A DNA stretch of 35,977 bases from positions 1-35,977 of the forward strand of contig MNZK01000019.1 in the NCBI GenBank assembly GCA_001873635.1, given 5' to 3'. The notes beneath the pieces were generated by a model. The model was not told the origin of the DNA. It saw only the letters and a list, made by a program, of their open reading frames with translations, and ran no database searches. The position numbers were made by a program, and so were the translations under genes. The DNA is from Porphyromonadaceae bacterium CG2_30_38_12 (GTDB lineage: Bacteria; Bacteroidota; Bacteroidia; Bacteroidales; Paludibacteraceae). Shown here in pieces: positions 1,863-35,977 of the stretch. How positions within the stretch are numbered: the first letter of the stretch is position 1; each line of letters starts with the position of its first letter.

Positions 1863-1961
1863 GGTATCGCATGTTACAAAATTCATTCAAAACAAGGTAT
1901 CGTCTGTGACAAAAAAGCAAGAAAATAAGGTATAGAATGTAACAATGAGGAAAATTTACAT
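1863..1961 (+). repeat. Three direct repeats with a 33-bp period upstream of DUF4143 ATPase 1
   Basis: Copies start at 1863, 1896 and 1929, exactly 33 bp apart. The conserved part is GGTATcGnaTGTnACAA, and the rest of each unit is A-rich. A weak further TTTACAAAC match at about 1842 may be a fourth degenerate copy. The array ends about 60 bp before the probable -7 element. Even phasing suggests protein-binding sites on the same helix face. Confidence 0.75.
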
Positions 1962-2023
1962 GAAAAAACTTCATTTTTAAAAATTTTTTCAGGCAATAAT
2001 GATAAAATCCAGCACAAAAACAA

Positions 2024-2031
2024 TATCTTTG
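2024..2031 (+). promoter_or_regulatory. Probable -7 promoter element of DUF4143 ATPase 1
   Basis: TATCTTTG matches the Bacteroidota consensus TAnnTTTG. No clear -33 TTTG is seen. Transcription would start near 2037, which puts the 23-bp repeats inside the transcribed leader. Confidence 0.5.
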
Positions 2032-2033
2032 CA

Positions 2034-2098
2034 AACGCAAAAATGATATTAAAATTAACGCAAAAGTGATATTGAGATTAACGCAAAAGTGATATTTT
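2034..2098 (+). repeat. Three direct repeats with a 23-bp period abutting the ATPase 1 start codon
   Basis: Copies start at 2034, 2057 and 2080, exactly 23 bp apart, each reading AACGCAAAArTGATATT. The last copy runs into the ATG at 2099. They lie between the -7 element and the start codon, so they could act as DNA operators, as RNA leader elements, or both. Confidence 0.85.
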
Positions 2099-3361
2099 AT
2101 GGCCGATTATTTATACAGGATAGCCGAAAAAGAGTTAAATGAAACCCTATTGGCAATGGGCGCTGTACTTGTACAAGGAGCGCGTGCAGTAGGCAAATCC
2201 ACTATTGCAAAAAAGTTGGCTAAAAGCGATATTTCGCTTGATGCTTCGGTATCGTTGATAGAACTGGCTAAAATCAGTCCTGATATAATTTTAGCCGGGC
2301 AAACACCCCGTTTTATCGACGAATGGCAATTAGCTCCCTCGATTTGGAACGCTTTACGCCACGAAATTGACAAACGCCAGGCAACCGCTCAATTTATTTT
2401 GGCTGGTTCGGCAACACCCGCCGATGATGTAACACGACATACCGGTGCTGGCCGTATTGGACGGGTTACTTTGATGCCTATGACTTTATTTGAAAGTGGA
2501 AATTCCACGAAACAAGTTAATTTAAGAAAACTGTTTGACGATGATTTCTCGACCGTAGCAGGATACGGCGGATTAACAGTGGAGCAATACGTACAAAGAA
2601 TAATTGTTGGAGGCTTCCCAAATCTTATCAATAAATCCGAAAAACAAGCGCATATTTATCTATCGAATTATTTAGACGATATCTCGCGAGTGAATTTAGG
2701 TACAGATATACTGAAAACTGACCCTGTAAGAATGCGCGCATTATTGCGAGCTATTTCCCGCAACATTGCAACCGAAATATCGATAACTAAACTTGCAACC
2801 GAAGCACAGCTCGATACTGAAAATCTTTCGGCACAAACTGCGCGAAAATATGTAGATCAGCTTTCACAGCTTTTTGTTTTACAGGAATTACCTGCGTGGT
2901 CGACTCATATTCGTTCCAACGTGAGGCAAAGGGTAAGCCCGAAATGGTTCTTTTGCGATCCTTCGTTGGCAACTGCATCGCTCGCGCTTTCGTCCGATAA
3001 ACTGTTGAAAGACCTGAATTCGCTCGGTTATTTGTTTGAAGCGCTAGCCATTCGCGATTTGAGAGTGTATGCACAAGCACTTGATGGTGAGGTGTTTCAC
3101 TACCGCGACGAAACAGGGCTCGAAGTAGATGCCATAATTGAACTACGGGACGGAAAATGGCTCGCATGTGAGATTAAACTTGGCGGCGAAGGTTCTGTAA
3201 ACGAGGGCATTTCAAATCTTATAAAGTTGCGAAATAAAGTGGTTGAAAGTAAATCGAAAAGCATTGCAGGGATGTGTGTAATTACAGCCGGTAAAGAAAG
3301 CTACACCGACCCCCGAAGTGGTGTACATATTATTGCACTATCGCATTTATTTATAGATTAA
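2099..3361 (+). CDS. AAA+ ATPase with DUF4143 domain (COG1373 type), ATPase 1
   Basis: This 420-residue protein is a stand-alone P-loop ATPase. Walker A is GARAVGKST at 27-35 and Walker B is RFIDEW with D74 and E75, matching the AAA_14 fold. The DUF4143 C-terminal half ends in a PD-(D/E)xK-like segment, LEVDAII...ACEIK, with D344, E358 and K360. Cellular roles in this large family are mostly unknown, so none is assigned. The start at 2099 gives a full-length product and lies directly after the 23-bp repeats. The gene stands alone between gene fragments and the glycan locus. Its 3' end was copied to 641-740, so this DNA has taken part in recombination. The D...ExK triad suggests a nuclease-like fold, but activity is not implied. 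Confidence 0.9.
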   Translation: MADYLYRIAEKELNETLLAMGAVLVQGARAVGKSTIAKKLAKSDISLDASVSLIELAKISPDIILAGQTPRFIDEWQLAPSIWNALRHEIDKRQATAQFILAGSATPADDVTRHTGAGRIGRVTLMPMTLFESGNSTKQVNLRKLFDDDFSTVAGYGGLTVEQYVQRIIVGGFPNLINKSEKQAHIYLSNYLDDISRVNLGTDILKTDPVRMRALLRAISRNIATEISITKLATEAQLDTENLSAQTARKYVDQLSQLFVLQELPAWSTHIRSNVRQRVSPKWFFCDPSLATASLALSSDKLLKDLNSLGYLFEALAIRDLRVYAQALDGEVFHYRDETGLEVDAIIELRDGKWLACEIKLGGEGSVNEGISNLIKLRNKVVESKSKSIAGMCVITAGKESYTDPRSGVHIIALSHLFID

Positions 3362-3367
3362 TAAAAA

Positions 3368-3392
3368 GTGGGTGGCTCGCAGAGCCTCACAC
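3368..3392. repeat. Palindromic element, copy 3
   Basis: The core GGCTCGCAGAGCC is at 3374-3386, with outer arms GTGGGT and TCACAC that pair imperfectly. It begins 6 bp after the ATPase 1 stop and ends 34 bp before the first intact glycosyltransferase. A transcript could fold it, but no T-tract follows, so it is not a typical terminator. Confidence 0.8.
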
Positions 3393-3426
3393 TTAAAGCA
3401 AAAGCAACAAAAAACTATTTCAACTT

Positions 3427-4290
3427 ATGAATCCAAAACTATCCATAATAACCATTAACCGCAACAACGCAGCAGGACTGCGCCGAACCATCGAAAGCGT
3501 AGTAAGCCAGACCTACACCGATTTTGAGTATATCATTATAGATGGGGCAAGTACCGACGAAAGCGTAGAAGTAATTAAAGAATTTGAAAATTTGAAAATT
3601 TGGGAATTTGAAAATTCTGAAACCCTCACCATCGGTAGCAGACTACAGTGGGTAAGCGAGCCCGACAAAGGCATTTATAATGCTATGAATAAAGGGATTT
3701 TGAAAGCGAAGGGAGAATATTTGTTGATGTTGAATAGTGGGGATTGGCTGGTGGATAGCCAAACATTAGATAATGTTTTTAAAAATAATTATAATCAAGA
3801 TATATTATATGGAAATATAATTTGGACTATAAATTCAGAAATTGCATTTAAAACAGAATTTAATTATAAGCTTCATTTTAAAAATTTTGTTCATGCAAGT
3901 TTAGCACATCAAGCAACATTTATTAAGCGTAAATTACATGATACAATAGGATTATACGATGAAAATCAAAAAATTGTTTCCGATTGGAGCTTTTTTCTTT
4001 TGTCTTTGTTTAAACATAATTGTACTCATTTTCATTTAAACCTATACATTGCTATTAGTGAGCGTGATGGAATTAGTTGCTTGCCACAAAATCAAGAATT
4101 GATTGATGAAGAAAGAAGAACCTTTTTAAAACATAACTTCAATTTGCAATACGAAGAGTATTCTGAAAATATCGACATAGAAAATGAATTAATTAAATAT
4201 CGTAACTTTTACGAAAAAAGCTACAAAACTAAAATTAAACGATTCTTGAAAAGAAATAAGCTGTTAAAAAAAAATAATACTGAAAATTAG
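3427..4290 (+). CDS. GT2 family glycosyltransferase
   Basis: A GT-A fold enzyme of 287 residues that should transfer a sugar from a nucleotide donor to a growing glycan at the cytoplasmic face of the membrane. The N-terminal strand is SIITINRNN (6-13), the nucleotide-binding acid region is IIIDGASTD (36-44), then WVSEPDKGIYNAMNKG (75-90) and LNSGD in the DxD position (102-106). Acceptor and donor cannot be told. Between 52 and about 74 there is an insertion (FEN..WEFEN) encoded by AATTTGAAAA-type repeat DNA at 3581-3625; related enzymes normally join these two blocks with far fewer residues. The C-terminal third is AT-rich and basic (KTKIKRFLKRNK). A 5' duplicate lies at 1735. It is the first gene of a run of six closely spaced genes ending at 9074. 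Confidence 0.9.
   Translation: MNPKLSIITINRNNAAGLRRTIESVVSQTYTDFEYIIIDGASTDESVEVIKEFENLKIWEFENSETLTIGSRLQWVSEPDKGIYNAMNKGILKAKGEYLLMLNSGDWLVDSQTLDNVFKNNYNQDILYGNIIWTINSEIAFKTEFNYKLHFKNFVHASLAHQATFIKRKLHDTIGLYDENQKIVSDWSFFLLSLFKHNCTHFHLNLYIAISERDGISCLPQNQELIDEERRTFLKHNFNLQYEEYSENIDIENELIKYRNFYEKSYKTKIKRFLKRNKLLKKNNTEN
3581..3625 (+). repeat. AATTTGAAAA simple-repeat tract inside the GT2 gene
   Basis: Alternating AATTTGAAAA and AATTTGGG-type units occupy this stretch and encode an extra peptide rich in F, E, N and W. The frame is preserved. It resembles spacer-type low-complexity DNA rather than normal coding sequence. Confidence 0.6.
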
Positions 4291-4296
4291 AAATTA

Positions 4297-5436
4297 ATGA
4301 AAATACTATTTATAGGACATGATGCAAGTAGAACTGGGGCACCTTTGCTTTTATTGCAATTAATGAACTGGTTAAAGGTTAATTACAGCGATATAGAATT
4401 TGATTGTTTGCTTTTAGATGGAGGTGAATTAGAAAACGAATACCAATCAACATGCAAAGTATATTATCGCGAACCAAAGGAAATAAAGCGGCTGAGCTAT
4501 ATAAAAAGAATTTTAAACAGAATTTTTAGAATAAAGCATAATATTACGGCTGCATACTATGATAATTTATTTAATAAATTAAAATCAAATAATTATGATG
4601 TGATTTATGGTAATACAATAGTAAGTTCAAATGCAATACTCGAATTAACCACATTGATACCGCATGCAAAAATATTGATGCATGTTCATGAATTGTATGA
4701 TATTACAAGATTTTATTCTGATTCATTAAATAAACTATCTGTCACAAAAATTAAAATTATTACTGTTTCGCAAATTACGAAGCAAAATTTGATTAAAAAT
4801 CATGGGATTAGTGAATCAAAAATTGAATTGGTATATGAATATATTGACACAAAAAAGATTACAGAAGAACAAATCGAAAACCCAACAACTAAATTTATTG
4901 TAAATGGTAGTGGTTTAGTGCAGGTTAGAAAAGGATATGATATATTTATTTCGGTTGCCAAAAGAGCAATTCAAAAATATCCCGATATACCATTTCATTT
5001 CAAATGGATTGGAACAATACCAGAATATCTGTCATTTTACATCCAAAATGATATAGAAATGGCTGATTTAAATGGAATTGTTGAATTTATTGGTGCAAAA
5101 GAAGATCCGTATTTTGAATTTTCGTCATCTTCCGTTTTTCTTATGACTTCCCGTCAAGATCCGTTCCCTTTAGTTTGTATTGAGCATGCTCTTTTAGGTA
5201 AACCAATTATATGTTTTGATAAAGTTTCAGGAATCCCCGAACTTGTGCGAGATGACGCAGGAATAGTTGTACCTTATTTAGACATTGAAGCTATGGTTGA
5301 TGCATTACAATTACTGTATACAAATCCAGACAAACTTACTATATTAGGCAATAAAGCCAGTCAGAAAGCATTAAACTATGATATTGATATTCAAGCAAAA
5401 AAAATTGTTGAAATTATTGAAAAAACTCTTTTGTAA
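4297..5436 (+). CDS. GT4 family glycosyltransferase
   Basis: A 379-residue GT-B fold retaining glycosyltransferase. It opens with MKILFIGHDASRTGAPL, where the GAP loop is typical of GT4 enzymes. The C-terminal donor-binding domain has NGSGLVQVRKGYDIF (residues about 203-217) and the segment SRQDPFPLVCIEHALLG...SGIPELV, which carries the E-x7-E-type pattern and a sugar-nucleotide contact. There are no membrane segments, so it probably acts peripherally at the inner membrane. It starts 6 bp after the preceding gene and is followed by another glycosyltransferase 17 bp downstream, consistent with one transcript. Donor and acceptor are unknown. Confidence 0.9.
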   Translation: MKILFIGHDASRTGAPLLLLQLMNWLKVNYSDIEFDCLLLDGGELENEYQSTCKVYYREPKEIKRLSYIKRILNRIFRIKHNITAAYYDNLFNKLKSNNYDVIYGNTIVSSNAILELTTLIPHAKILMHVHELYDITRFYSDSLNKLSVTKIKIITVSQITKQNLIKNHGISESKIELVYEYIDTKKITEEQIENPTTKFIVNGSGLVQVRKGYDIFISVAKRAIQKYPDIPFHFKWIGTIPEYLSFYIQNDIEMADLNGIVEFIGAKEDPYFEFSSSSVFLMTSRQDPFPLVCIEHALLGKPIICFDKVSGIPELVRDDAGIVVPYLDIEAMVDALQLLYTNPDKLTILGNKASQKALNYDIDIQAKKIVEIIEKTLL

Positions 5437-5453
5437 TTAATTCAAGCCCACTC

Positions 5454-6380
5454 ATGCCTAAAGTCTCTGTTATAGTACCCAACTACAATCATGCGCCCTA
5501 TTTAGAGCAACGCATTGAGAGTATCATCAATCAAACCTATCAAGATTTTGAGTTGATATTGCTCGACGATTGTAGTACTGATAATAGTGTAGAAGTGCTT
5601 AAGCGCTATGCACAGCACCCCAAGGTTTCGCATTTTATTGTAAACGAGCAAAACAGCGGCAGCACCTTCCGCCAATGGGACAAAGGAATAAACCTTGCCT
5701 CGGGCGAATGGATTTGGATAGCGGAGAGTGATGATTGGGCAGAAAGGGAGTTTTTGGAGAGAATGATGGAAAGTATTGCAAAGGAACCGAAAAATGTAAG
5801 TATTTGTTTTTCAAATTCGTATCTGAGCGACAAAGATAGTGTAGTAGGTGATATTTACGATAAAGATTTTGAATTATACGAAAACGATTTTTCGATTAAT
5901 GGCAAACAATTGGTTGACAAATACATGCCGTATCAGAATATTATACCAAATGCAAGTGCCGTACTTTTCAAAAAGGCATATTTCCCCAAAGACTTAATTA
6001 ATGATTTGACAGCATTTAAAATCAATGGTGATTGGTTTTTATGGATCAATTTACTCCTGAAAGGTAATTGTGTTTTTGTCTCAAAACCACTCAATTATTT
6101 CAGACGACACGATGGAGCTGGAAGCCCTAAAAATGTATTGAATTTTAAAAATATAGAAGAAGCAATGCGTATCAATGTATTTTTAAAAGAGAAAAATGTT
6201 ATAATAAATCCTCAATACTGGCTGAATTTTTGGATAATACAAGCAAATTACAACATTAAAAGGATTTTGAAAATTAATTTTAAAGCAGTATATTCGCAGG
6301 TAGCAAAATTATATCCATATCCAATGCTTTTTATACTAACGAAAATAGCAAAGCAGAAATTCAAGGCAAGGTTTCTATGA
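5454..6380 (+). CDS. GT2 family glycosyltransferase
   Basis: This 308-residue GT-A enzyme begins VSVIVPNYNHAPYLEQRIESI. It has LLDDCSTDNS at about 36-45, then GEWIWIAESDDWAE, where ESDD gives the DxD-type metal site. The middle contains FRRHDGAGSPKN, a common loop in rhamnosyl- or galactosyl-type GT2 enzymes, although specificity cannot be read from it. The C-terminus is basic. It overlaps the next gene by four bases (ATGA at 6377-6380), implying coupled translation. Confidence 0.9.
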   Translation: MPKVSVIVPNYNHAPYLEQRIESIINQTYQDFELILLDDCSTDNSVEVLKRYAQHPKVSHFIVNEQNSGSTFRQWDKGINLASGEWIWIAESDDWAEREFLERMMESIAKEPKNVSICFSNSYLSDKDSVVGDIYDKDFELYENDFSINGKQLVDKYMPYQNIIPNASAVLFKKAYFPKDLINDLTAFKINGDWFLWINLLLKGNCVFVSKPLNYFRRHDGAGSPKNVLNFKNIEEAMRINVFLKEKNVIINPQYWLNFWIIQANYNIKRILKINFKAVYSQVAKLYPYPMLFILTKIAKQKFKARFL

Positions 6381-7192
6381 ACAAAGCAATAATCATAATC
6401 CCAATATACAAAGCCACTCCCGACGCATACGAGCTAATATCATTCAGGCAATGTCTGAAAGTATTGCATCGTTACAAGGTTTGTATCGTTACATTCGATT
6501 CGTTGGATACAAGCTTCTATAAAGACGAATTGCAACAATCGGATGTTAATTATCAGTTTGAATATTTTGATAAAAGTTATTTCGAAAATCTCGATGGATA
6601 CAATCGCCTTATGCTATCTATTGAATTTTACAAACGTTTCAACACTTTCGAGTATATGCTTATTTATCAGTTAGATGCTTATGTATTTAGGGATGAATTG
6701 GATGCATGGTGCACAAAAGGTTACGATTATATTGGTGCGCCGTGGTTTGATGACAATAAATCAATTGAAGAAGGAGCCAAATTATGGGCAGTAGGTAATG
6801 GCGGTTTCTCGCTTCGGAAAACAAATACTTTTTTGAGAATTTTAAACTTCAAGAAAAATGTTTATAGCTATAAATATATTACAAAACAATGGATTTCCGG
6901 AAAAATATCCTTTTTCCTAAATATTAAAATGCTATTAGGATTTGTAGAAAACAAAATTATTTATCTGATTTCAAAGTGGGAAGATGCCGAAGATTTGTTT
7001 TATTGTTTAAAACTCAGAGATACTAAATTGAAAATTAAAGTACCAACAGTAGAGGAAGCCTCATTTTTTGCTTTTGAACAATCGTGCGAGTACCTATATA
7101 AACAAAATAAGCAACAATTACCATTTGGTTGCCACGCATGGCAAAAATACGATTATAAAACATTTTGGTATAAACACATTAAAATGCAATGA
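6377..7192 (+). CDS. DUF5672 family protein, probable glycosyltransferase
   Basis: The 271-residue product matches DUF5672 by its signature: LIYQLDAYVFRDELDAWC (about 94-111), GYDYIGAPWF and the GNGGFSLRKT block. The YQLDAYVF acids resemble a DxD-like metal site and the GNGGFSLR block resembles acceptor-side motifs of GT-A enzymes. Members are regularly found among capsule and O-antigen glycosyltransferases, but I know of no biochemical assignment to rely on. It overlaps the preceding gene and the following gene by four bases each (ATGA), so it belongs firmly to this operon. Confidence 0.85.
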   Translation: MNKAIIIIPIYKATPDAYELISFRQCLKVLHRYKVCIVTFDSLDTSFYKDELQQSDVNYQFEYFDKSYFENLDGYNRLMLSIEFYKRFNTFEYMLIYQLDAYVFRDELDAWCTKGYDYIGAPWFDDNKSIEEGAKLWAVGNGGFSLRKTNTFLRILNFKKNVYSYKYITKQWISGKISFFLNIKMLLGFVENKIIYLISKWEDAEDLFYCLKLRDTKLKIKVPTVEEASFFAFEQSCEYLYKQNKQQLPFGCHAWQKYDYKTFWYKHIKMQ

Positions 7193-8109
7193 TTAAAATA
7201 GTTACTTTGACAAAAAAGGGCTCAGAAACTGATTTTGAAAAGGAATACATTTATGACTTTCTGTTTTCAAAACTTACCGAAATACAAAACCATGACCACA
7301 GGTTAATTATTTATGCCACGAATAATAATGGTATTGTACCTGCGGTGAATGTTTACCCTACGGATGTTTTTCTTCATCTTTCCAACGAAAATTTAAAATA
7401 CGACTATTATTTTTTAAATAAATCAAATACTGTTCTACGTTCTTATTTCAATCCTTTGATTAAGCATCAAAAATGCTTTTCAATTCCTTTGGGCTATCAA
7501 AGCGGCTTTAGAAATATTGAAAATTTAAAAGGAGAGAATAACAGATATATGTGGTCGTTTATTGGTCAGATGAAATCATTCAGAAAACCGATGTATGATG
7601 CATTTCAGAAATACGAACCAAATTATGCAAGCTTTTCGCAAAAATGGAATTCCCAGTCGCTTAGCTTTGATGAGGTGAAACAAATATATTTAGATACTGC
7701 CTTTGCGCCATGTCCTTTCGGGTCGGTGCATGCCGATACTATTAGGGTTATGGAAGTATTGGAGTGGGGATGTATTCCTGTAGTCGTTAATTTTTTAGGC
7801 AACGACTACTACAAATATATTTATGGTGACCATCCCTTCGTTGTAGGGAGAAATTGGGATGATGCAGCGCAAAAAGTGGCTGAAATTTTCGAAAACAAAA
7901 TGTTGTTAAAGAAAAAACAAACCGAAACTGCTTCCTGGTACGAAAAATTCAAAGATAACTTGACTGATGATGTAGTATCGATTGTTTCCGGTCGGTTCAA
8001 CAATTTAAAATCTTCGCAATTTGAATATCAAAATGCCGGACGCAAGGATATAATTATGAAATTAAGGTATTATTATCATTTTCATATAAAAACCAAAACA
8101 ATATATTGA
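7189..8109 (+). CDS. Exostosin-like (GT47-related) glycosyltransferase
   Basis: A 306-residue protein with the exostosin-family C-terminal signature FAPCPFGSVHADTIRVMEVLEWGCIPVVV (about residues 176-204). Exostosin-family signatures share an R..E.l..GCIPV core, which in this family belongs to the donor-binding half of a GT-B fold. No signal peptide or anchor is visible, so it should be cytoplasmic, unlike the eukaryotic Golgi enzymes. It overlaps its upstream neighbour by four bases, and its stop (TGA 8107-8109) overlaps the next start by one base. The likely job is adding one residue to the same glycan as its neighbours. Confidence 0.8.
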   Translation: MIKIVTLTKKGSETDFEKEYIYDFLFSKLTEIQNHDHRLIIYATNNNGIVPAVNVYPTDVFLHLSNENLKYDYYFLNKSNTVLRSYFNPLIKHQKCFSIPLGYQSGFRNIENLKGENNRYMWSFIGQMKSFRKPMYDAFQKYEPNYASFSQKWNSQSLSFDEVKQIYLDTAFAPCPFGSVHADTIRVMEVLEWGCIPVVVNFLGNDYYKYIYGDHPFVVGRNWDDAAQKVAEIFENKMLLKKKQTETASWYEKFKDNLTDDVVSIVSGRFNNLKSSQFEYQNAGRKDIIMKLRYYYHFHIKTKTIY

Positions 8110-9074
8110 TGGCAGCTATTTCAGTTATAATTCCGATATATAATGTAGAAGCATACATTTCAAAATGTCTCGATTCAGTTTTAAAACAACCATTTACAGA
8201 TTTTGAACTGATATGCGTAAATGATGCCTCACCTGATAATTCGAGAGATATTGTACTGGAATATCAGAAAAAGCATTCGAACATCAAACTTATCGACAGA
8301 GAAAACGGCGGATTGAGTGCAGCCCGAAATACAGGTATCAAAAACGCGATAGGCAAATATCTTTTGTTTTTGGATAGCGATGATTATCTTTCGGAGAACA
8401 TTCTTGGTGCTATGTATCAGCAAATGGAAACCGAACATTTAGACTTGCTTTTAGGAAATATTCAGTGGGTGTACGAGGATGGTAAAGTGGTACAGGAAAA
8501 ACAGATTACGGATATAATAAGTACAGTGCAAGAAGGTGAAAATTGTTTTTATACACTTATCGAAACCGATTATTATGTACCTATGGCATATAATGCAATA
8601 TGTAGGAGAGATTTTATTGTGAAAAATAATTTATTTTTCGAAGAGGGTTATGTTTACGAAGACGAAATGTGGACTCCCGAAGCTTTGATTAAAGCTGAAA
8701 GAGTGAATGGTTTTACAACTTATCACTACAATTATTTTCAACGTGCTAATACAATTACAAATTCAGAATTAAGCGATTATAAATTGAGATGCATGTTGCA
8801 AGCTGCCAATCATATCATCGAATTATCTGAAAAAGACAATGGTATTTCAATCAGAACCAAGGCAAACTTATGGTTAAGAGCTTATATAATTTGGGGATTA
8901 TACAACAAAAACAAAGGGAACGTAAAAAATAACCTGAAAACCAAAAACTTTTCAATTAAAAGTTTGCTGCTGGCTAAATTGCCTCAAATGCAATTTGAAA
9001 AATGTTTGCAAAACTGTATAAGTTCAAAGTATGCTCGCAGGTTTTACCGAATAGTCTATAAAATGTGGTTTTGA
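8109..9074 (+). CDS. GT2 family glycosyltransferase
   Basis: A 321-residue enzyme with the N-terminal signature ISVIIPIYNVEAYISKCLDS, the acid motif VNDASPDNS, the GGLSAARNTGI loop and a textbook metal-binding LFLDSDDYLS. This is the EpsH/WcaA-like GT2 arrangement common in exopolysaccharide loci. I choose the ATG at 8109, in the TGATG overlap with the preceding stop; the frame also contains a TTG one codon earlier. It closes the first tightly packed run of glycosyltransferases, after which a 275-bp gap with repeats precedes ATPase 2. Confidence 0.92.
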   Translation: MAAISVIIPIYNVEAYISKCLDSVLKQPFTDFELICVNDASPDNSRDIVLEYQKKHSNIKLIDRENGGLSAARNTGIKNAIGKYLLFLDSDDYLSENILGAMYQQMETEHLDLLLGNIQWVYEDGKVVQEKQITDIISTVQEGENCFYTLIETDYYVPMAYNAICRRDFIVKNNLFFEEGYVYEDEMWTPEALIKAERVNGFTTYHYNYFQRANTITNSELSDYKLRCMLQAANHIIELSEKDNGISIRTKANLWLRAYIIWGLYNKNKGNVKNNLKTKNFSIKSLLLAKLPQMQFEKCLQNCISSKYARRFYRIVYKMWF

Positions 9075-9168
9075 TATGGCTTTTTTAAACCTTAGTAGAA
9101 AGTGATAGTAGAGATAAAACTATAACCAGCGAAAAGCTATGAACTATGTGTCTATTGTGGTTCAATAT

Positions 9169-9257
9169 TCTGCACAACAAAAACCCTTAAATCTGCACAA
9201 TGAAATTTCATTACAATTGCCAAAATCGGAAGTAAAAATGTGCCAAAGTCGGAAGTA
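9169..9257 (+). repeat. Direct-repeat array upstream of DUF4143 ATPase 2 (about 23-bp phasing)
   Basis: TCTGCACAA occurs at 9169 and 9192, 23 bp apart. TGCCAAArTCGGAAGTA occurs at 9218 and 9241, also 23 bp apart. Aligned on TGC, the four units start at 9171, 9194, 9218 and 9241, so the whole region is phased at 23-24 bp. The second pair is the stronger (16 of 17 bases). The array lies about 60 bp upstream of the probable -7 element. The rest of the gap 9075-9349 shows nothing recognisable. Confidence 0.7.
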
Positions 9258-9314
9258 GTTATTAAACTTCAGAATATTTTCAGTCTAAAAATAGCAATTA
9301 TTGGAAATAATGTG

Positions 9315-9322
9315 TAAATTTG
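9315..9322 (+). promoter_or_regulatory. Probable -7 promoter element of DUF4143 ATPase 2
   Basis: TAAATTTG fits TAnnTTTG and lies 27 bp before the ATG at 9350. No clear -33 element is present, as would suit an activator- or repressor-controlled promoter. Confidence 0.45.
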
Positions 9323-9349
9323 CAATTGCATTTCAAAATTACACAAAAC

Positions 9350-10525
9350 ATGGACAATCATTTCATTAAAAGAAAATTAGCAGATGTAATACTTGATGCT
9401 TCTAAATACTTTTCTGTAATAACCATTACCGGGCCACGTCAATCAGGTAAAACAACATTAATTCGTCATTTATTTGATCAACTACCCTATTATTCGCTTG
9501 AAAGTTTTGACATACGGAGTTTTGCATTGAACGACCCTGTCGGATTTTTAAGTCAACATGCACAAGGCATGATTTTGGACGAAGTGCATAATGCGCCGGT
9601 TCTTCTATCGTACATACAACAATTGGTAGATAATAATCCTGAGAAAAGGTTTATATTATCCGGCAGTTCGCAATTCTCGATGTTGAAAAACGTAACCCAA
9701 TCACTTGCCGGTAGAACAGCCGTGTTTGAGTTAATGCCATTGTCGTACGCTGAAATCAGGCAAAATGCAACATCAAAATCGCTCGACGATATATTATTTG
9801 ATGGATTTTATCCTGCCATATACGCCGAAAAAAACAAAGCTGAATATTTATATCCGGCATATATCAAAACATACTTAGAAAAAGATGTTCGCGATATTTT
9901 GCAAATAAAGGACATGTTGCAATTTCAAACTTTTTTGAGACTTTGTGCAGGTCGTATCGGGTCGCTTTTTAATGCTTCGGAACTATCAAACGAAGTTGGT
10001 GTAAGCACCAACACTATTATAGCTTGGTTATCGGTATTGCAGGCATCTTATATAATCCATATCTTACCCCCATTTTTCGACAATAGTAGAAAACGGCTAA
10101 CCAAAACACCCAAAATATATTTTACAGATACCGGATTAGCCTGTAATTTATTGGGAATAGAATCGGCAGCTCAATTAGCCCGTGATAAAATGCGTGGATT
10201 TCTGTTCGAGAACTTTATTGTTTCCGAAGCACTAAAACATCGTTTCAATCAAGGAAAAGCAAGTAATGCTTATTTTTATCGGGATAGTCATCAAAACGAA
10301 GTTGATTTACTACTCAAAACGACTGAGGGTGTAAGCGCTTTCGAAATAAAATCGGCAATGACCTACAATCCACAATTTGAGAAAGCATTAAAGCAACTCA
10401 GTAATTGGATAACAGAACCTGTTGTTGAAAAAACTATTGTATATTCGGGCGAATACGAAAACTCAACTTCTGAAATAAGACTTATTCATTATTCTAATTT
10501 TTCGAATGGCATGATTGCAAAATAA
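9350..10525 (+). CDS. AAA+ ATPase with DUF4143 domain (COG1373 type), ATPase 2
   Basis: The ATG at 9350 gives 391 residues; an upstream TTG at 9320 would add a peptide that overlaps the promoter. Walker A is GPRQSGKTT (28-36) and Walker B is MILDEVH with D77 and E78. A GSSQFSML sensor-like segment follows. The C-terminal DUF4143 part contains NEVDLLL...AFEIK with D319, E332 and K334, a PD-(D/E)xK-like core. It is a paralogue of the ATPase at 2099 but clearly diverged, so it is not a recent duplicate. It interrupts the glycosyltransferase series and has its own promoter region with a repeat array, so it is probably an independently acquired, self-regulated unit. Its molecular role is unknown. 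Confidence 0.9.
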   Translation: MDNHFIKRKLADVILDASKYFSVITITGPRQSGKTTLIRHLFDQLPYYSLESFDIRSFALNDPVGFLSQHAQGMILDEVHNAPVLLSYIQQLVDNNPEKRFILSGSSQFSMLKNVTQSLAGRTAVFELMPLSYAEIRQNATSKSLDDILFDGFYPAIYAEKNKAEYLYPAYIKTYLEKDVRDILQIKDMLQFQTFLRLCAGRIGSLFNASELSNEVGVSTNTIIAWLSVLQASYIIHILPPFFDNSRKRLTKTPKIYFTDTGLACNLLGIESAAQLARDKMRGFLFENFIVSEALKHRFNQGKASNAYFYRDSHQNEVDLLLKTTEGVSAFEIKSAMTYNPQFEKALKQLSNWITEPVVEKTIVYSGEYENSTSEIRLIHYSNFSNGMIAK

Positions 10526-10572
10526 AAAATATTAAATTGTCTGCTTACTCGACTAATCGTTAATCACTAAAA

Positions 10573-11499
10573 ATGAAAGCAACTATCATAATCCCCACAT
10601 ACAATCGCTCCGATGTAATTATTCGCTCGCTCGAAACCTGGGGTGCACAAACGCTGCCTGCAACCGAATTCGAAGTAATTGTGGTGGATAATAATTCTAC
10701 CGATAATTCGGCGCAACTTATTCAAGAATTTATTGCCGATAAACCTAATTTCCGATACTTGTTGGAAACGCAAAAAGGTTCGACCAATGCCCGCCACAGT
10801 GGTGCACGAATGGCTCAAAGCGACATTCTAATTTTTTGCGACGACGACGGACTGTTTAATCCCGAATGTATTCAAGAAGTGCTGAATGTATATACAGCCA
10901 ACGAAAATGCGGCTGCGGTAGCGGGAAAAATTGAAATACAATGGGATGCACCAGCTCCCGATTGGATAGAACCTTATTTGTTTATGTTAGGCAGATTGAA
11001 TTATGGTAACGAAGTAATCTTCCGCAACGATATTTACCTAAACGGTGGTATTTTTTCGATTCGCAAATCGGTATTTAATGAACTGGGTGGTTTTAACCCC
11101 GATTTGGTAGGCGGCTATTTGGTAGGCGATGGCGATACAGGCTTAGTTATTAAGCTACATAAAGCAGGTAAACTTATTGGCTGGACACCCTTTGCCACCA
11201 TGCAACACCTGCAATTTATCGACCGACAGGGAACAGAACGCGATATGGGTCGTCGCTTTTTCAATACAGGTATAAGCAATGCTTACGGTGTTTTTCGCGA
11301 AAATAATTTTCGTTTCAACGGCAAAGTGCTGAAATATATTTTACTTGCTTTGGTGTTTGTGCTAAAAAAACAAGTAGAATTGCTTATTTTTGCAAACGAC
11401 AAACGAAAAACCCGTTTCAGCCTGATGCAACGACGTGGCGAATTGCAGTTTTTCTGGAATCTACGCAAAAAAGAGATTCGAAAGGTTGTTTTTCAGTAA
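10573..11499 (+). CDS. GT2 family glycosyltransferase
   Basis: A 308-residue GT2 enzyme with ATIIIPTYNRSDVIIRSLE, VVDNNSTDNSAQ (about 36-47) and ILIFCDDDGLFNPE, where CDDDG is the metal site. The acceptor-side region GGFNPDLVGGYLVGDGDTGLVIKLHKAG contains a G(D/E)GDTGL acid, the likely catalytic-base loop. A hydrophobic helix near 252-264 (ILLALVFVLKK) followed by basic residues suggests peripheral membrane attachment. It stands alone between ATPase 2 and ATPase 3, about 50 bp after the former. Confidence 0.9.
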   Translation: MKATIIIPTYNRSDVIIRSLETWGAQTLPATEFEVIVVDNNSTDNSAQLIQEFIADKPNFRYLLETQKGSTNARHSGARMAQSDILIFCDDDGLFNPECIQEVLNVYTANENAAAVAGKIEIQWDAPAPDWIEPYLFMLGRLNYGNEVIFRNDIYLNGGIFSIRKSVFNELGGFNPDLVGGYLVGDGDTGLVIKLHKAGKLIGWTPFATMQHLQFIDRQGTERDMGRRFFNTGISNAYGVFRENNFRFNGKVLKYILLALVFVLKKQVELLIFANDKRKTRFSLMQRRGELQFFWNLRKKEIRKVVFQ

Positions 11500-11518
11500 A
11501 TATTTTAACAAAAGTGGA

Positions 11519-11598
11519 TTTTGTCGTCTATATTCGATAAAAAACACCTATTTTTGTCGTGTATATTCGACAAAAACAGTATTTTTTTATCGAATATA
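11519..11598. repeat. Direct and inverted repeats upstream of DUF4143 ATPase 3
   Basis: TTTTGTCGTnTATATTCGA starts at 11519 and again at 11552, 33 bp apart. The second copy is itself a near-palindrome (TTTGTCG against CGACAAA). A third site, TTTTTTATCGAATATA at 11583-11598, is the exact reverse complement of 11529-11544, 16 of 16 bases. The three sites end about 40 bp before the ATG at 11640. This looks like a multi-site operator. Confidence 0.85.
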
Positions 11599-11639
11599 GT
11601 TGGTAAATAGTAAATTTACAATCAAAAACACGAACTCCT

Positions 11640-12893
11640 ATGTCGAAAGATATTTTCAAACAGCTAATTGCCGAATACCAACAAAAGGTATTATCAGTCA
11701 ACTATCAGCCTCGAAATTATGCTGTTGACAAACAATTAAATTATGTTTTTACCGGTTTGCGTCGAGTTGGGAAATCGTATCTTATGTATCAGATAATAAA
11801 CGATTTAGTGCGTGAAGGCCATAGTGCAAACGAAATACTATATTTTAATTTCGAAGATGATCGTATAGCATCGCTCAGCATATCAGATTTGGATTTGATA
11901 AAAGTGAGCTTTGAGGAAATGTACGATGTGCGTCCGATTTTCTTTTTAGATGAAATACAGGTTGTTGATAAATGGGAAAAATTTGCGCGTCGGCTTGCCG
12001 ACCAAGGCTATCGGGTATATATCACAGGTAGCAATGCCCGTATGTTAAGTAGCGAGATTGCCACAACACTTGGAGGGCGATTTATGATTCAGCAAATCTA
12101 TCCCTTTTCGTTTTCGGAATACCTGCAAATGCTTGACTTTGATATAAATGACAAAAATTTAATTTACAGCCGAAGTACAGATATTACAAAAGCTTTCGAA
12201 ACCTATTTTAGGTACGGAGGTCTACCCGAACATTTCAACGTAACCGACAAACGTGCCTGGCTAAGTAATTTGTTTCAGAAACTTTTTTTTGGCGATTTGG
12301 TTACCCGCTATCAGGTACGAAACGATTTTGCACTCAAAATGCTTATACGAAAATTGGCCGAGAGTGTAAAACAGCCCGTTTCATTTTCTCGATTATCAAA
12401 TATTGTTTCGTCGGCTGGTAAAAAAGTAAGTACAGATACCATTATTGATTATCTGAACCACATTAACGAGAACTGGATATGTTTTGAAGTAGAAAATATT
12501 AATGCAAAATTAGCAGCTAAAACTTCGAATAAGAAATACTATTTTAGTGATAATGGGTTGTTAAATCTTTTTCTTATTGACCCAAATACAGCCTTGATTG
12601 AAAACATGGTAGCCATAAAGCTCCAACAGCAGTTCGGGTCCGATTTTTATTATTATCAGAATGGTGTTGAAGTTGATTTTTATATTCCCGAAAAGCATTT
12701 AGCCATACAGATATGCTACGATTTAAAAGATGAATCGACCCGTAAACGGGAAGTAAATGCATTACTTAAAATGAAAAACCAATTCGAGGATATTGATTTA
12801 ATGATAATTACCAAAGATGACGAGAAAACCATTGAGATTAATAATACTGTAATTGAGGTTGTTCCTGTTTGGAAGTGGTTGCTGAATCATTAA
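11640..12893 (+). CDS. AAA+ ATPase with DUF4143 domain (COG1373 type), ATPase 3
   Basis: This 417-residue protein has Walker A GLRRVGKS (39-46) and Walker B IFFLDEIQ with D104 and E105, then a TGSNARML sensor-like strand. The C-terminal domain has VEVDFYIP...AIQICYD, where the usual glutamate of a D...ExK core is replaced by Gln. This is frequent in this subgroup and argues against nuclease activity for this copy. It belongs to a different branch of COG1373 from the other two (GLRRVGKS rather than GxRxxGKT). It sits between a glycosyltransferase and the deacetylase operon, with its own repeat-bearing upstream region. Function unknown. Confidence 0.9.
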   Translation: MSKDIFKQLIAEYQQKVLSVNYQPRNYAVDKQLNYVFTGLRRVGKSYLMYQIINDLVREGHSANEILYFNFEDDRIASLSISDLDLIKVSFEEMYDVRPIFFLDEIQVVDKWEKFARRLADQGYRVYITGSNARMLSSEIATTLGGRFMIQQIYPFSFSEYLQMLDFDINDKNLIYSRSTDITKAFETYFRYGGLPEHFNVTDKRAWLSNLFQKLFFGDLVTRYQVRNDFALKMLIRKLAESVKQPVSFSRLSNIVSSAGKKVSTDTIIDYLNHINENWICFEVENINAKLAAKTSNKKYYFSDNGLLNLFLIDPNTALIENMVAIKLQQQFGSDFYYYQNGVEVDFYIPEKHLAIQICYDLKDESTRKREVNALLKMKNQFEDIDLMIITKDDEKTIEINNTVIEVVPVWKWLLNH

Positions 12894-12959: not shown

Positions 12960-13712
12960 ATGATACCTTTAAAACTCCGTCTTATACGCGAAAAAAACAG
13001 ACTATATACCTCCATGCTGAAACTCATTAGCATATTTCAACGTGGACCCGAAGTATATATTTTTCATGATATATTGGAGCGTAAAGAAGATGTAAAATCG
13101 GAGTTTGCCTTGTCGCATGCATCATTCGAAGCATTTTTGAAAGCGCAATTGCAAAAAGGTCGTAAACCTTTGACTTTTCATCAACTTACGCTACAAATTG
13201 AAGGAAAAGTGCCGAAAATCAAAAAGAGTTTTTGCGTTTCGTTCGACGATTGCAACACCAGTGTTTACACACGTGCTTATCCTTTTTTGAAAGCAAACGC
13301 TATTCCATTTATCCTTTTTATTACCAAAGATTTAATTGGCAAAAAGAATTTTCTTACAGCCGAACAAATAATGACGCTGGCCAAAGACCCGCTGTGCACC
13401 ATTGGTTCGCATGCAGTACATCACAAAATGTTCCGCTACTTTACACCCAACGAAGCCAAAGCGGAATACGAACAATCGCGCCGATATTTGCAGCAACTAA
13501 GTGGTCAAGCGGTTGATTGCTTTGCATTTCCGTATGGTCGATTGGTAGAAGTATCGTGCGAAAACATTAAACTATTGCAACAAACGGATTATAAATTTGC
13601 CTTTTCGGCCATCGCCGGCAACTTAAATCAGCAATGGATAAGTGGGAAGTATTATTTGCCGAGGATAAATGTAAGTGAGAAAATTACTCAAAAAATCAAT
13701 AATCTAAAATAA
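12960..13712 (+). CDS. Polysaccharide deacetylase (NodB/CE4 family)
   Basis: A 250-residue carbohydrate esterase 4 domain that would remove N-acetyl groups from a GlcNAc-containing glycan. Motif 1 is SFDDCNTS (94-101, D96 and D97; the usual TFDDG). Motif 2 is GSHAVHH (149-155) with the metal-binding histidines H151 and H155. Motif 3 is FPYGR (190-194). The N-terminus has no cleavable signal peptide, so a cytoplasmic or membrane-associated site during assembly is more likely than an outer-surface one. It opens a tightly packed operon to 17441, with one base between its stop and the gtrB-like start. Confidence 0.88.
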   Translation: MIPLKLRLIREKNRLYTSMLKLISIFQRGPEVYIFHDILERKEDVKSEFALSHASFEAFLKAQLQKGRKPLTFHQLTLQIEGKVPKIKKSFCVSFDDCNTSVYTRAYPFLKANAIPFILFITKDLIGKKNFLTAEQIMTLAKDPLCTIGSHAVHHKMFRYFTPNEAKAEYEQSRRYLQQLSGQAVDCFAFPYGRLVEVSCENIKLLQQTDYKFAFSAIAGNLNQQWISGKYYLPRINVSEKITQKINNLK

Positions 13713-35124: not shown

Positions 35125-35977
35125 ATGAAACATTTTTTTACCGCTCGCCAATATTTATTGTTGGCTATTCTTATTTTGTTTATTGTTAATGCAAATGCGC
35201 TTACCTATAAGGTTCAAGTACCTCAGGGCACAATGGAATGTTATTTTGCCGGTGAAATTAATGGCTGGATACATCAAAAAATGACTATGACGGACTCTAC
35301 AAAGTTTGAAATTGATTTTGCTGCAGCAACTACCATGCAGCAATATAAGTACTGCTCTGGTCCTGGTTGGGGTTTTGAAGAGATAAGACCCAATGGTGAA
35401 AATAGGACATGGTCTGTTAGTGATGTAGTAACAGGATGGGCACTAATTTACAATCCCAACACCTTGCCAGAGAAAGTTACCTATACTGTTACGGTGCCTT
35501 TAGGAACGAAAGGATGTTGGATTGCGGGAGCAAATAATAATTGGGCTTTCAACGAAATGCAACGCATTGATTCTACACACTACACAATTACTGTCAGCAC
35601 CACAACACGTGATAAGTATAAATATTGTTCGGGTCCTGATTGGAAATATACCGAGTTAGATTCAGTCTTTCAAGATGTACCGAACAGAGATTATAAACCA
35701 AATGACAAAGTCGCTCACTGGACTTATATTTATGATCCAGATTCAACGGCAAATCCGATTTATGGCTGTATGGATGCTAAAGCAATAAACTACAATCCAT
35801 TAGCAACAGCACCGGCACAATGTATTTACGATTCTGTTCCAAATCAAATTGTAGGTTGTATGGATTCGATTGCTAAAAACTACAATCCATTAGCAACCGT
35901 TCCGGCACAATGTATTTACGATTCTGTTCCAAATCAAATTGTAGGTTGTATGGATTCGATTGCTAACAACTACAATC
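35125..35977 (+). CDS. Secreted modular protein with GCMD..NYNP tandem repeats, 3'-partial
   Basis: The frame opens at ATG 35125 and is still open at the window end (284 residues visible). A signal peptide (1-25) is followed by two similar modules: about 26-115 (YKVQVPQGTMECYFAGEINGW...QYKYCSGPGW) and about 116-205 (YTVTVPLGTKGCWIAGANNNW...KYKYCSGPDW). Each looks like an immunoglobulin-like carbohydrate-binding sandwich of the starch/glycogen-binding sort, judged by the AG..N.W and KYC pattern. From residue 214, 30-residue repeats GCMDs.A.NYNPLAT.PAQC follow; related to the GCTDP.A.NYNP.AT.DDGSC repeat of secreted Bacteroidota proteins. The large protein was not listed as a closed ORF because its stop lies outside. 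A surface or extracellular role is expected; the C-terminal sorting signal cannot be seen. Confidence 0.8.
   Translation, partial: MKHFFTARQYLLLAILILFIVNANALTYKVQVPQGTMECYFAGEINGWIHQKMTMTDSTKFEIDFAAATTMQQYKYCSGPGWGFEEIRPNGENRTWSVSDVVTGWALIYNPNTLPEKVTYTVTVPLGTKGCWIAGANNNWAFNEMQRIDSTHYTITVSTTTRDKYKYCSGPDWKYTELDSVFQDVPNRDYKPNDKVAHWTYIYDPDSTANPIYGCMDAKAINYNPLATAPAQCIYDSVPNQIVGCMDSIAKNYNPLATVPAQCIYDSVPNQIVGCMDSIANNYN
35764..35977 (+). repeat. Near-identical 90-bp coding tandem repeats, running off the window
   Basis: Units start at 35764, 35854 and 35944, exactly 90 bp apart. Units 1 and 2 differ at a few bases, and the visible 34 bases of unit 3 differ from unit 2 at one. Such DNA-level identity implies recent expansion or ongoing homogenisation. 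Confidence 0.9.

Follow-up and report, generated by a model that had tools for sequence, protein, structure and literature searches.

Short Phased Repeat Arrays Upstream of DUF4143 ATPase Genes and Their Co-variation with a Putative Recognition Helix

Introduction

Plasmid initiator iterons are phased direct repeats of approximately 20–23 bp; a winged-helix protein encoded beside them reads them and in many cases represses its own gene. Archaeal Orc1/Cdc6 proteins, which join an AAA+ domain to a winged helix, recognize origin recognition boxes beside their genes, and several paralogues each have their own sites. Here we describe three DUF4143 (COG1373) ATPase genes, A1, A2 and A3, each preceded by short direct repeats, in a 35,977-nucleotide stretch (contig MNZK01000019.1, positions 1 to 35,977; the whole stretch is hereafter the window) of the Paludibacteraceae genome Porphyromonadaceae bacterium CG2_30_38_12 (assembly GCA_001873635.1). 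As with iterons, phased direct repeats of about 20–23 bp lie beside the gene of a winged-helix protein, but this protein also has predicted AAA+ and nuclease domains, and family members are found on megabase contigs as well (three, for example, in one contig of 2.66 Mb); since up to 29 members occur in a single genome, an iteron replicon is unlikely. A possible likeness to Orc1/Cdc6 would extend to the predicted AAA+ and winged-helix domains, the specific repeats beside the gene and the paralogues with their own sites, whereas the additional nuclease domain, the phased promoter arrays of 23 or 32/33 bp and the number of members per genome set the two apart.

Another known system is PDC-S01, a putative defence reported to rank fourth in frequency when all prokaryotes are considered, in which an ATPase is fused to a PD-(D/E)-X-K domain and for which cross-domain transfers are described; experimental validation is pending for most PDCs (PMC12988326). 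In rumen genomes, 10,358 occurrences have been counted (PMC13356809). A1, A2 and A3, together with two relatives (L024 and L071), all match PADLOC PDC-S01 models, and we regard the three as candidate members of this single-gene phage-defence candidate. The ATPases are the same DUF4143/COG1373 proteins; the arrays are described here, whereas the passages on PDC-S01 in these two papers contain no mention of arrays or self-regulation. A literature search that excluded preprints and most subscription journals returned no description of such arrays. Intergenic tandem repeats of 23 nt are also known from another member of the Bacteroidales, Porphyromonas gingivalis, where they form the BrickBuilt miniature inverted-repeat transposable elements (MITEs), one family of which occupies 19 places in the genome (PMC4596501). 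The present units differ in that the A1 unit occurs at one locus and the motif GCCAAAAYMGGAAGTA at two in the draft genome (2.63 Mb, 82.6% complete), and a MITE or other dispersed repeat was rejected for that reason; the word "ATPase" has no occurrence in the BrickBuilt passages (PMC4596501).

We put at roughly two in three the probability that the array is a cis operator of the adjacent ATPase gene (A2 excepted), read by the ATPase's own winged helix, with autorepression the most likely consequence. In what follows, we detail the evidence for this proposal, the points that weigh against it and the alternatives.

Arrays Accompany the ATPase Genes

A first-pass annotation of the window had reported direct repeats upstream of each of the three ATPase genes, and all of them are present at the positions given and stand above dinucleotide shuffles (scores are +1/-2 per lag, with thresholds of 12 or 14). 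The observed score was reached in 0 of 500 shuffles for the 23-bp array of A1, in 1 of 2000 for its 33-bp array, in 2 of 2000 and 0 of 2000 for the first and second pairs of A2, and in 0 of 2000 for A3; Tandem Repeats Finder reported only the 23-bp array of A1. The same annotation placed the arrays at the ATPases and not at their neighbours, which is borne out: among 19 other plus-strand gene starts tested in the window (a start being the first ATG of the open frame), only that at 12960 scored at least 14, and the match there is a simple 16/8-bp AT repeat. Searches through the own genome, the family, the order and the phylum gave the same picture, with arrays scoring at least 14 within 300 bp upstream far commoner at DUF4143-like genes (72/173) than at their neighbours (19/464; here and in all later counts, the controls leave out genes that diverge from a DUF4143 gene). 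When limited to periods near 23, 32/33 and 64–66 bp, the counts are 63/173 and 6/464. Over all fetched loci, a 23/46-bp-period array precedes 118 of 152 genes of A1's clade versus 6 of 1016 neighbouring genes, and a 32/33/64–66 array at a score of at least 12 precedes 8 of the same 1016 neighbours. Genes identical in their last 100 upstream bases (120 in one count) were counted once, and proteins shorter than 330 aa (300 in the cross-phylum set) were dropped. Upstream repeats are a property of the gene family.

The signal is concentrated 5′ of the gene. In the Bacteroidales set, period-23 matches number 25 in the 10.5 kb that make up the last 300 bp before the genes, versus 3 in 9.9 kb downstream and 7 in 143 kb of other regions; in the wide set there are 41 in 23.6 kb upstream, versus 0 in 21.5 kb just downstream and 4 in 448 kb elsewhere. 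In Bacteroidota, a TANNTTTG box lies at most 150 bp from the start in 81/95 array genes versus 8/95 in a control stretch, and the median distance from the scored array end to the nearest such box is 3 to 14 bp. At A1, the three 23-bp copies begin downstream of a box, TATCTTTG (2024–2031), that we take to follow the −7 consensus of Bacteroidota, and they reach the start codon. A repressor would fit this placement better than an activator, the arrays of Bacteroidota overlapping or adjoining the −7 box and that of A1 extending from just past its box to the start codon.

Unit Period Follows Protein Lineage

The draft genome contains seven DUF4143 matches, one of which (L006, contig 63) is a fragment with an internal stop codon, apparently the remnant of another family member; stop-bearing or shortened copies occur in relatives as well, which suggests turnover within the family. 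Of the six intact genes, A1 and L002 have 23-bp arrays, A3 and L005 have 33-bp arrays (the best lag of L005 being 66), A2 has two 23-bp pairs and L003 has none. On a tree of 237 intact genes, with arrays scoring at least 12, the lags sort by clade. A1's clade (33 genes on the tree) has 26 arrays, with lag 23 in 23, lag 46 in 2 and lag 64 in 1. In a clade of proteins of about 436 aa (53 genes), 31 of 37 arrays fall at 32 or 33 and 4 at 65 or 66, the remaining 2 having different lags, while a group of about 377 aa (three neighbouring clades, 68 genes) likewise has 37 arrays, 32 of them at 32/33, 1 at 34, 2 at 64 and 2 at other lags; many units of this group are dyads. The small clade of A3 (6 genes) has three arrays, one at lag 33. 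The periods of 23 and 32/33 therefore track protein lineage, and they would lie about one helical turn apart. An exception is L045, which groups with A2's clade on one tree and stands alone on another, and which has four clean 23-bp units such as CAAACTTTAGATTTTTACCATAT. Two further loci, L024 and L050, have very long arrays of at least 10 nearly identical 33-bp units, as if recently expanded.

The anatomy of the 23-bp unit emerged from 86 arrays aligned in register over all positions. The minus-strand genes of L266 and L318 were removed from this set by hand (only that of L318 would have passed), and L297 was kept as a single copy after consensus. The shared frame consists of GCCAAA (approximate, positions 3–8), A15, T17, R18 and AAA at 19–21, with an information content of 7.89 bits versus 3.7–4.0 bits in 12 nulls, and it encloses a variable core at positions 9–14 that differs between genes. 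Between copies of one array, agreement is highest at positions 3–15 and lowest at 22–1, and 81 of the 86 arrays have two to five units. Array pairs that share a unit belong to proteins of 54–61% mean identity and have upstream flanks at background; among unit-sharing relatives in A1's clade, array conservation is 22.0, versus 6.4 for the upstream flank and 6.3 for a random flank. Within the draft genome, the A1 23-bp core occurs at one locus only, with up to one mismatch allowed. The A1 33-bp core, GGTATMGNNTGTNACAA, has three exact sites at its array and two single one-mismatch sites elsewhere (a reversed control has three sites).

A Putative Recognition-Helix Position Tracks the Array Core

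All three proteins match PF13173 and PF13635 above the curated cut-offs; scans with NCBIfam and PHROGs gave no useful match, and a sequence search for a solved structure of the family found none (best E 0.84 and 0.09). A1 retains the Walker A and B motifs as well as E314, E342, D344, E358 and K360, and among 107 aligned proteins of its clade the last four are conserved in 100, 99, 98 and 98%. Repeat and protein sequences co-vary in all three clade sets, as the first-pass annotation had anticipated, and in one of A1's sets weakly (see below). For the two groups with 32/33-bp periods, the correlation of unit identity with protein identity is 0.419 and 0.505 (rho; reached in 0/2000 permutations), and in the wide set it was reached in 0/1000 permutations, or in 34/1000 when only cross-phylum pairs were considered.

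When the array core of A1's clade was compared with each of about 420 protein columns after removal of overall identity, residue 246 ranked first (partial rho 0.332) and residue 245 second (0.225), with the next column at 0.150; the triplet 245/246/249 exceeded 3000 of 3000 entropy-matched triplets. Mutual information returned the same top pairs, two of which exceed all 30 permutation maxima. In the AlphaFold (AF2) model of A1 (mean pLDDT 93.1), these three residues begin a helix, 245–257, that follows helix 229–235 in a helix-turn-helix-like arrangement. Independent gains at position 246, counted on a tree built without residues 240–258, point the same way: gains of aspartate coincide with C at unit position 13 in 8/8 (non-carriers 13/71), of lysine with GG at 12–13 in 4/6 (0/69), of proline with AAA at 13–15 in 5/6 (3/71) and of asparagine with C12 in 7/9 (21/71). 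In the ~377-aa group, where the period is different and units are often dyads, the top column is T228, which a profile alignment places at Q246. Taken together, these comparisons indicate that in A1's clade the array core is probably read by the ATPase's own winged helix.

Residue-to-base rules were then written down before the sequences of 34 new A1-clade genes, 32 of them with an array, were fetched, and the register of these held-out units ignored positions 9–14; several of them look out of register (L380, the second gene of L395, L407 and L410), and the set contained no gene of the A-Q-R type of A1. The rule that D246 predicts C13 was followed in 6/6 cases versus 5/26 of the others (p 5e-4). 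Units of R-N-S proteins showed the motif as written, TTGCACAA, in 1/5 and the shorter TGCACA in 5/5, and those of R-P proteins showed TGTAAA in 5/5.

Spread Across Phyla and Transfer

For a cross-phylum set, genome_contigs was scanned with A1-clade proteins, and the best 80 of at least 587 relatives were taken as loci. A 23 or 46 array (score at least 12) precedes 49 of 74 intact genes, two of which are the minus-strand genes of L266 and L318 and lie outside A1's clade, versus 6 of 431 neighbours at nearby lags. By group labels taken from the record titles, arrays are present at 8/12 genes in Bacillota, 5/6 in archaea, 3/6 in Gemmatimonadota, 5/5 in Pseudomonadota, 15/17 in Bacteroidota, 0/2 in Nomurabacteria, 0/1 in Deltaproteobacteria and 6/6 among single genes of other groups. 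At one archaeal locus (L318, Methanoplasma), a single 23-bp array is common to two divergent DUF4143-like genes. Of the 4 phage and 207 plasmid records matched, eight were looked at, and every one has a 23-bp array, which in three cases just reaches the threshold of 12; these records come from Bacteroides ovatus, Collinsella aerofaciens (two), Bacteroides uniformis, Prosthecochloris aestuarii, Lentilactobacillus hilgardii and two faecal phage-labelled contigs. Because a scan of viral_contigs gave few loci (9 from 32 pattern matches), the gene is not typically viral.

The earlier suggestion that gene and array form a self-contained transferable unit fits these data, with units shared across phyla (that of A1, for instance, with the Actinomycetota loci L264 and L267) and no conserved partner gene. 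The 314 neighbours of 107 genes, two per side where present, fall into 282 clusters, the largest of which covers 7 loci and looks by eye like another ATPase; no partner of the kind that a toxin-antitoxin operon would have was found among them. A family that looks AlbA_2-like by eye adjoins A1-clade genes at five loci. Members of one clade can also coexist: genome G429 carries three A1-clade genes in a stretch of some 7 kb, interspersed with other DUF4143-like genes and each with its own unit, and genome G434 has five with different units. Locus L387, from another family of the class, encodes a protein 88% identical to A1 over 328 aa and has a similar array; it may represent a recent transfer of gene plus array (its frame of 329 aa falls below the length cut-off, and it was thereby removed from the counts).

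A Probable Operator Read by the ATPase, and the Alternatives

Binding, oligomerization, repression, its trigger and a function in defence are what we infer from these computed features, and they would fit together as follows. The protein combines an AAA+ ATPase, a winged helix and a PD-(D/E)xK nuclease domain, and in A1's clade its site would be the 23-bp unit, whose constant frame, approximately GCCAAA ... A.TRAAA, encloses a variable core; this core, about 6 bp long, would serve as a gene-specific address. Since the units are phased at a clade-specific period (23, or 32/33 elsewhere), several protomers could bind side by side, and binding most likely represses the gene because the array overlaps or adjoins the core promoter. 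If an event such as infection upset the bound complex, the nuclease level would then rise, and gene and array would travel together. A cis array whose protein-DNA code can be read in part would offer a mechanistic handle on the family, in that the DNA ligand of a protein could be proposed from its recognition helix and paralogues with different addresses could be told apart; the plasmid-borne members in Bacteroides, Collinsella, Prosthecochloris and Lentilactobacillus provide named test material. A broader and decidedly tentative proposal is that PDC-S01 is a family of self-addressed immune nucleases in bacteria and archaea, each a gene plus a short DNA address linked by an amino-acid/base code, with an AAA+ oligomer seated on its own promoter array. 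The array would be operator and safety catch at once, with the nuclease parked until infection, and private addresses would let many such paralogues share one genome.

Several results weigh against an operator read by the winged helix. No 23/46 array was called at 34 of the 152 A1-clade genes, arrays precede only 7 of 19 genes in Actinomycetota, and A2's clade (43 genes) has arrays at 4, with mixed lags. Within A1's Bacteroidales set alone, the co-variation of unit and protein is weak (rho 0.152, 46/2000 permutations). When the comparison is made with the whole unit (positions 3–17), Q246 keeps first place but A245 drops to sixth, after E338, H88, D194 and C393 (the triplet exceeds 2999 of 3000 entropy-matched triplets in this test), and the 60 highest-scoring pairs by mutual information are scattered through every domain (AAA 12, residues 136–200 14, winged helix 16, nuclease 18). 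The held-out genes come from the window's own class and many are related to training genes, part of the positions had been listed earlier, and the rule that K246 predicts GG failed among them (1/4 versus 1/28 of the others, p 0.24). For the ~377-aa group the best 7-residue window stays below the 95% permutation level (0.244 versus 0.252), and the leading column of the ~436-aa clade is Q371, which belongs to the nuclease region and not to the winged helix. The first-pass annotation had proposed the C-terminal PD-(D/E)xK domain as the reader of the repeats; the ~436-aa clade leaves room for that idea, whereas in A1's clade and the ~377-aa group the nuclease domain is disfavoured because the top column is the same recognition-helix position.

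The strongest competitor, although an unlikely one, holds that the array, read by the ATPase, serves for loading, parking or addressing and controls the ATPase/nuclease on DNA, in the way that origin boxes act on Orc1/Cdc6, with transcription control secondary. The phased repeats would fit an oligomer, conservation of the nuclease and Walker residues is strong, some arrays are long (those of L024 and L050), and Orc1/Cdc6 on origin DNA and RuvB are among the best partial Foldseek matches, as are MalT and the Card1/Cdn1 nucleases. These matches have low TM-scores, however (query-normalized 0.18–0.38; for the Orc1/Cdc6 comparison with 2qby_B, E is 3.7e-5 but TM only 0.22–0.25), nearly all arrays of the 23-bp clade are limited to two to five units, and those of Bacteroidota lie on or beside the core promoter.

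A single-gene mobile element, with the array as its end or target and the ATPase acting there during movement, is distinctly improbable. Units shared across phyla, the absence of conserved neighbours, the orphan arrays beside A2 and the similar array of L387 in another family would all be expected, but the period-23 signal is concentrated 5′ of the gene and Pfam gives no transposase domain in A1–A3. Transposon ends as such were rejected, the signal being mainly 5′ of the gene, and so was a CRISPR-like array, since these are head-to-tail units whose short spacer is fixed and whose core is invariant.

We give still less credence to a host regulator, distinct from the ATPase, that binds the arrays. 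Such a protein would account for arrays at A2 that are typical of other genes, but many phyla, archaea included, show the same 23-bp period and frame, and the core tracks the ATPase's own recognition-helix residues. An RNA-level element, whose transcribed repeats would fold or bind in the 5′ leader, is slightly less credible again. The A1 copies do lie downstream of the putative promoter, many units of the ~377-aa group are dyads, and in A1's clade the unit almost always faces the same way relative to the gene (among similar pairs, 84 agree in orientation and 6 are opposed). Yet the scored array ends upstream of the box in 16 of the 22 A1-clade arrays with a box, and in the ~436-aa clade L056 and L071 carry the same unit in opposite orientations. 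Functionless minisatellites, which the seemingly recent tandem expansions at L024 and L050 resemble, are hardly believable, given that spacers diverge while core and period stay fixed, that units but not flanks are common to proteins of 54–61% mean identity, and that the core co-varies with the recognition helix.

A2 and Arrays Without an Owner

The claim that each ATPase has its own array holds for A1 and A3 and fails for A2, whose arrays match those of A1's clade. The second pair at A2 has the same unit as L002, a member of A1's clade on contig 56, and its motif GCCAAAAYMGGAAGTA, with at most one mismatch, has five sites in the whole draft, all at these two loci. The first pair agrees at 34 of 35 bases with the array of L321, an A1-clade gene of the Sphingobacteriaceae, and is near those of L166, L379 and L383, which are of the R-N type. 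No owner for it was found in the 82.6%-complete draft, where the A1-clade genes are A1 (A-Q-R) and L002 (E-K-S), both of other types. Confinement of sites to the own promoter is seen for A1 and not for the arrays beside A2. As these are of other genes' type, sites could act in trans or outlive their owner, and the A2 arrays may serve L002-like proteins as trans operators or be what remains of genes since lost. The 33-bp array of A1 has the wrong period for A1's clade and found no strong match among 205 other arrays.

Features of the Window

The features discussed above are collected in Table 1. Successive 23-bp units of A1, at 2034, 2057 and 2080, are identical at 20/23 and 17/23 positions (16/17 and 17/17 within the 17-bp core), and the 33-bp units at 1863, 1896 and 1929 are weaker (22/33 and 19/33). 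At A2, the pair at 9218 and 9241 agrees at 18/23 positions and that at 9169 and 9192 at only 15/23, with nine common bases, TCTGCACAA. The A3 units at 11519 and 11552 agree at 25/33, and the unit is a dyad at 22/26 positions.

Table 1. Coordinates of the ATPase genes and associated repeats in the window.
Feature	Position	Strand	Remark
33-bp-period array 5′ of A1, three units, core GGTATMGNNTGTNACAA	1863..1961	+	no strong match among 205 other arrays
Putative Bacteroidota −7 promoter box TATCTTTG of A1	2024..2031	+	directly 5′ of 23-bp array
23-bp-period array of A1, three units AACGCAAAAGTGATATT+6	2034..2102	+	third core ends at 2096; third unit overruns ATG
A1, 420 aa, AAA_14 + winged helix + DUF4143 PD-(D/E)xK ATPase	2099..3361	+	Pfam, PADLOC PDC-S01
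Putative recognition helix codons, A1 residues 245–257	2831..2869	+	A245, Q246, R249 co-vary with array core
First 23-bp pair 5′ of A2, R245-N246 (TGCACA) type of A1's clade	9169..9214	+	shuffles, array comparison
Second 23-bp pair 5′ of A2, GCCAAAATCGGAAGTA	9218..9263	+	same type as L002 array (contig 56)
A2, AAA_14/DUF4143 ATPase, clade largely without arrays	9350..10525	+	Pfam
33-bp-period array of A3, two dyad units, e.g. TTTTTGTCGTGTATATTCGACAAAAA	11519..11576	+	shuffles, array comparison
Part of A3 unit, exact inverted copy of 11529–11544	11583..11598	-	read directly
A3, 417 aa, AAA_14/DUF4143 ATPase	11640..12893	+	Pfam, PADLOC PDC-S01

Just before A1, a short frame (845–1576) has a match to HATPase_c_4 (RecG C-terminal-like). 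Inspection by eye places diverged copies of the A1 3′ tail and of the beginning of the next gene, a glycosyltransferase (3297–3530), upstream at 640–738 and 1678–1836; the copy of the A1 tail at 640–738 lies inside the end of a rhomboid frame, and a truncated glycosyltransferase start occupies 1739–1836. A small hairpin, GGCTCGCAGAGCC, adjoins these copies, which suggest an older duplication or gene turnover. At the window end (35767–35977) there is a 90-bp tandem repeat of 2.3 copies (score 324).

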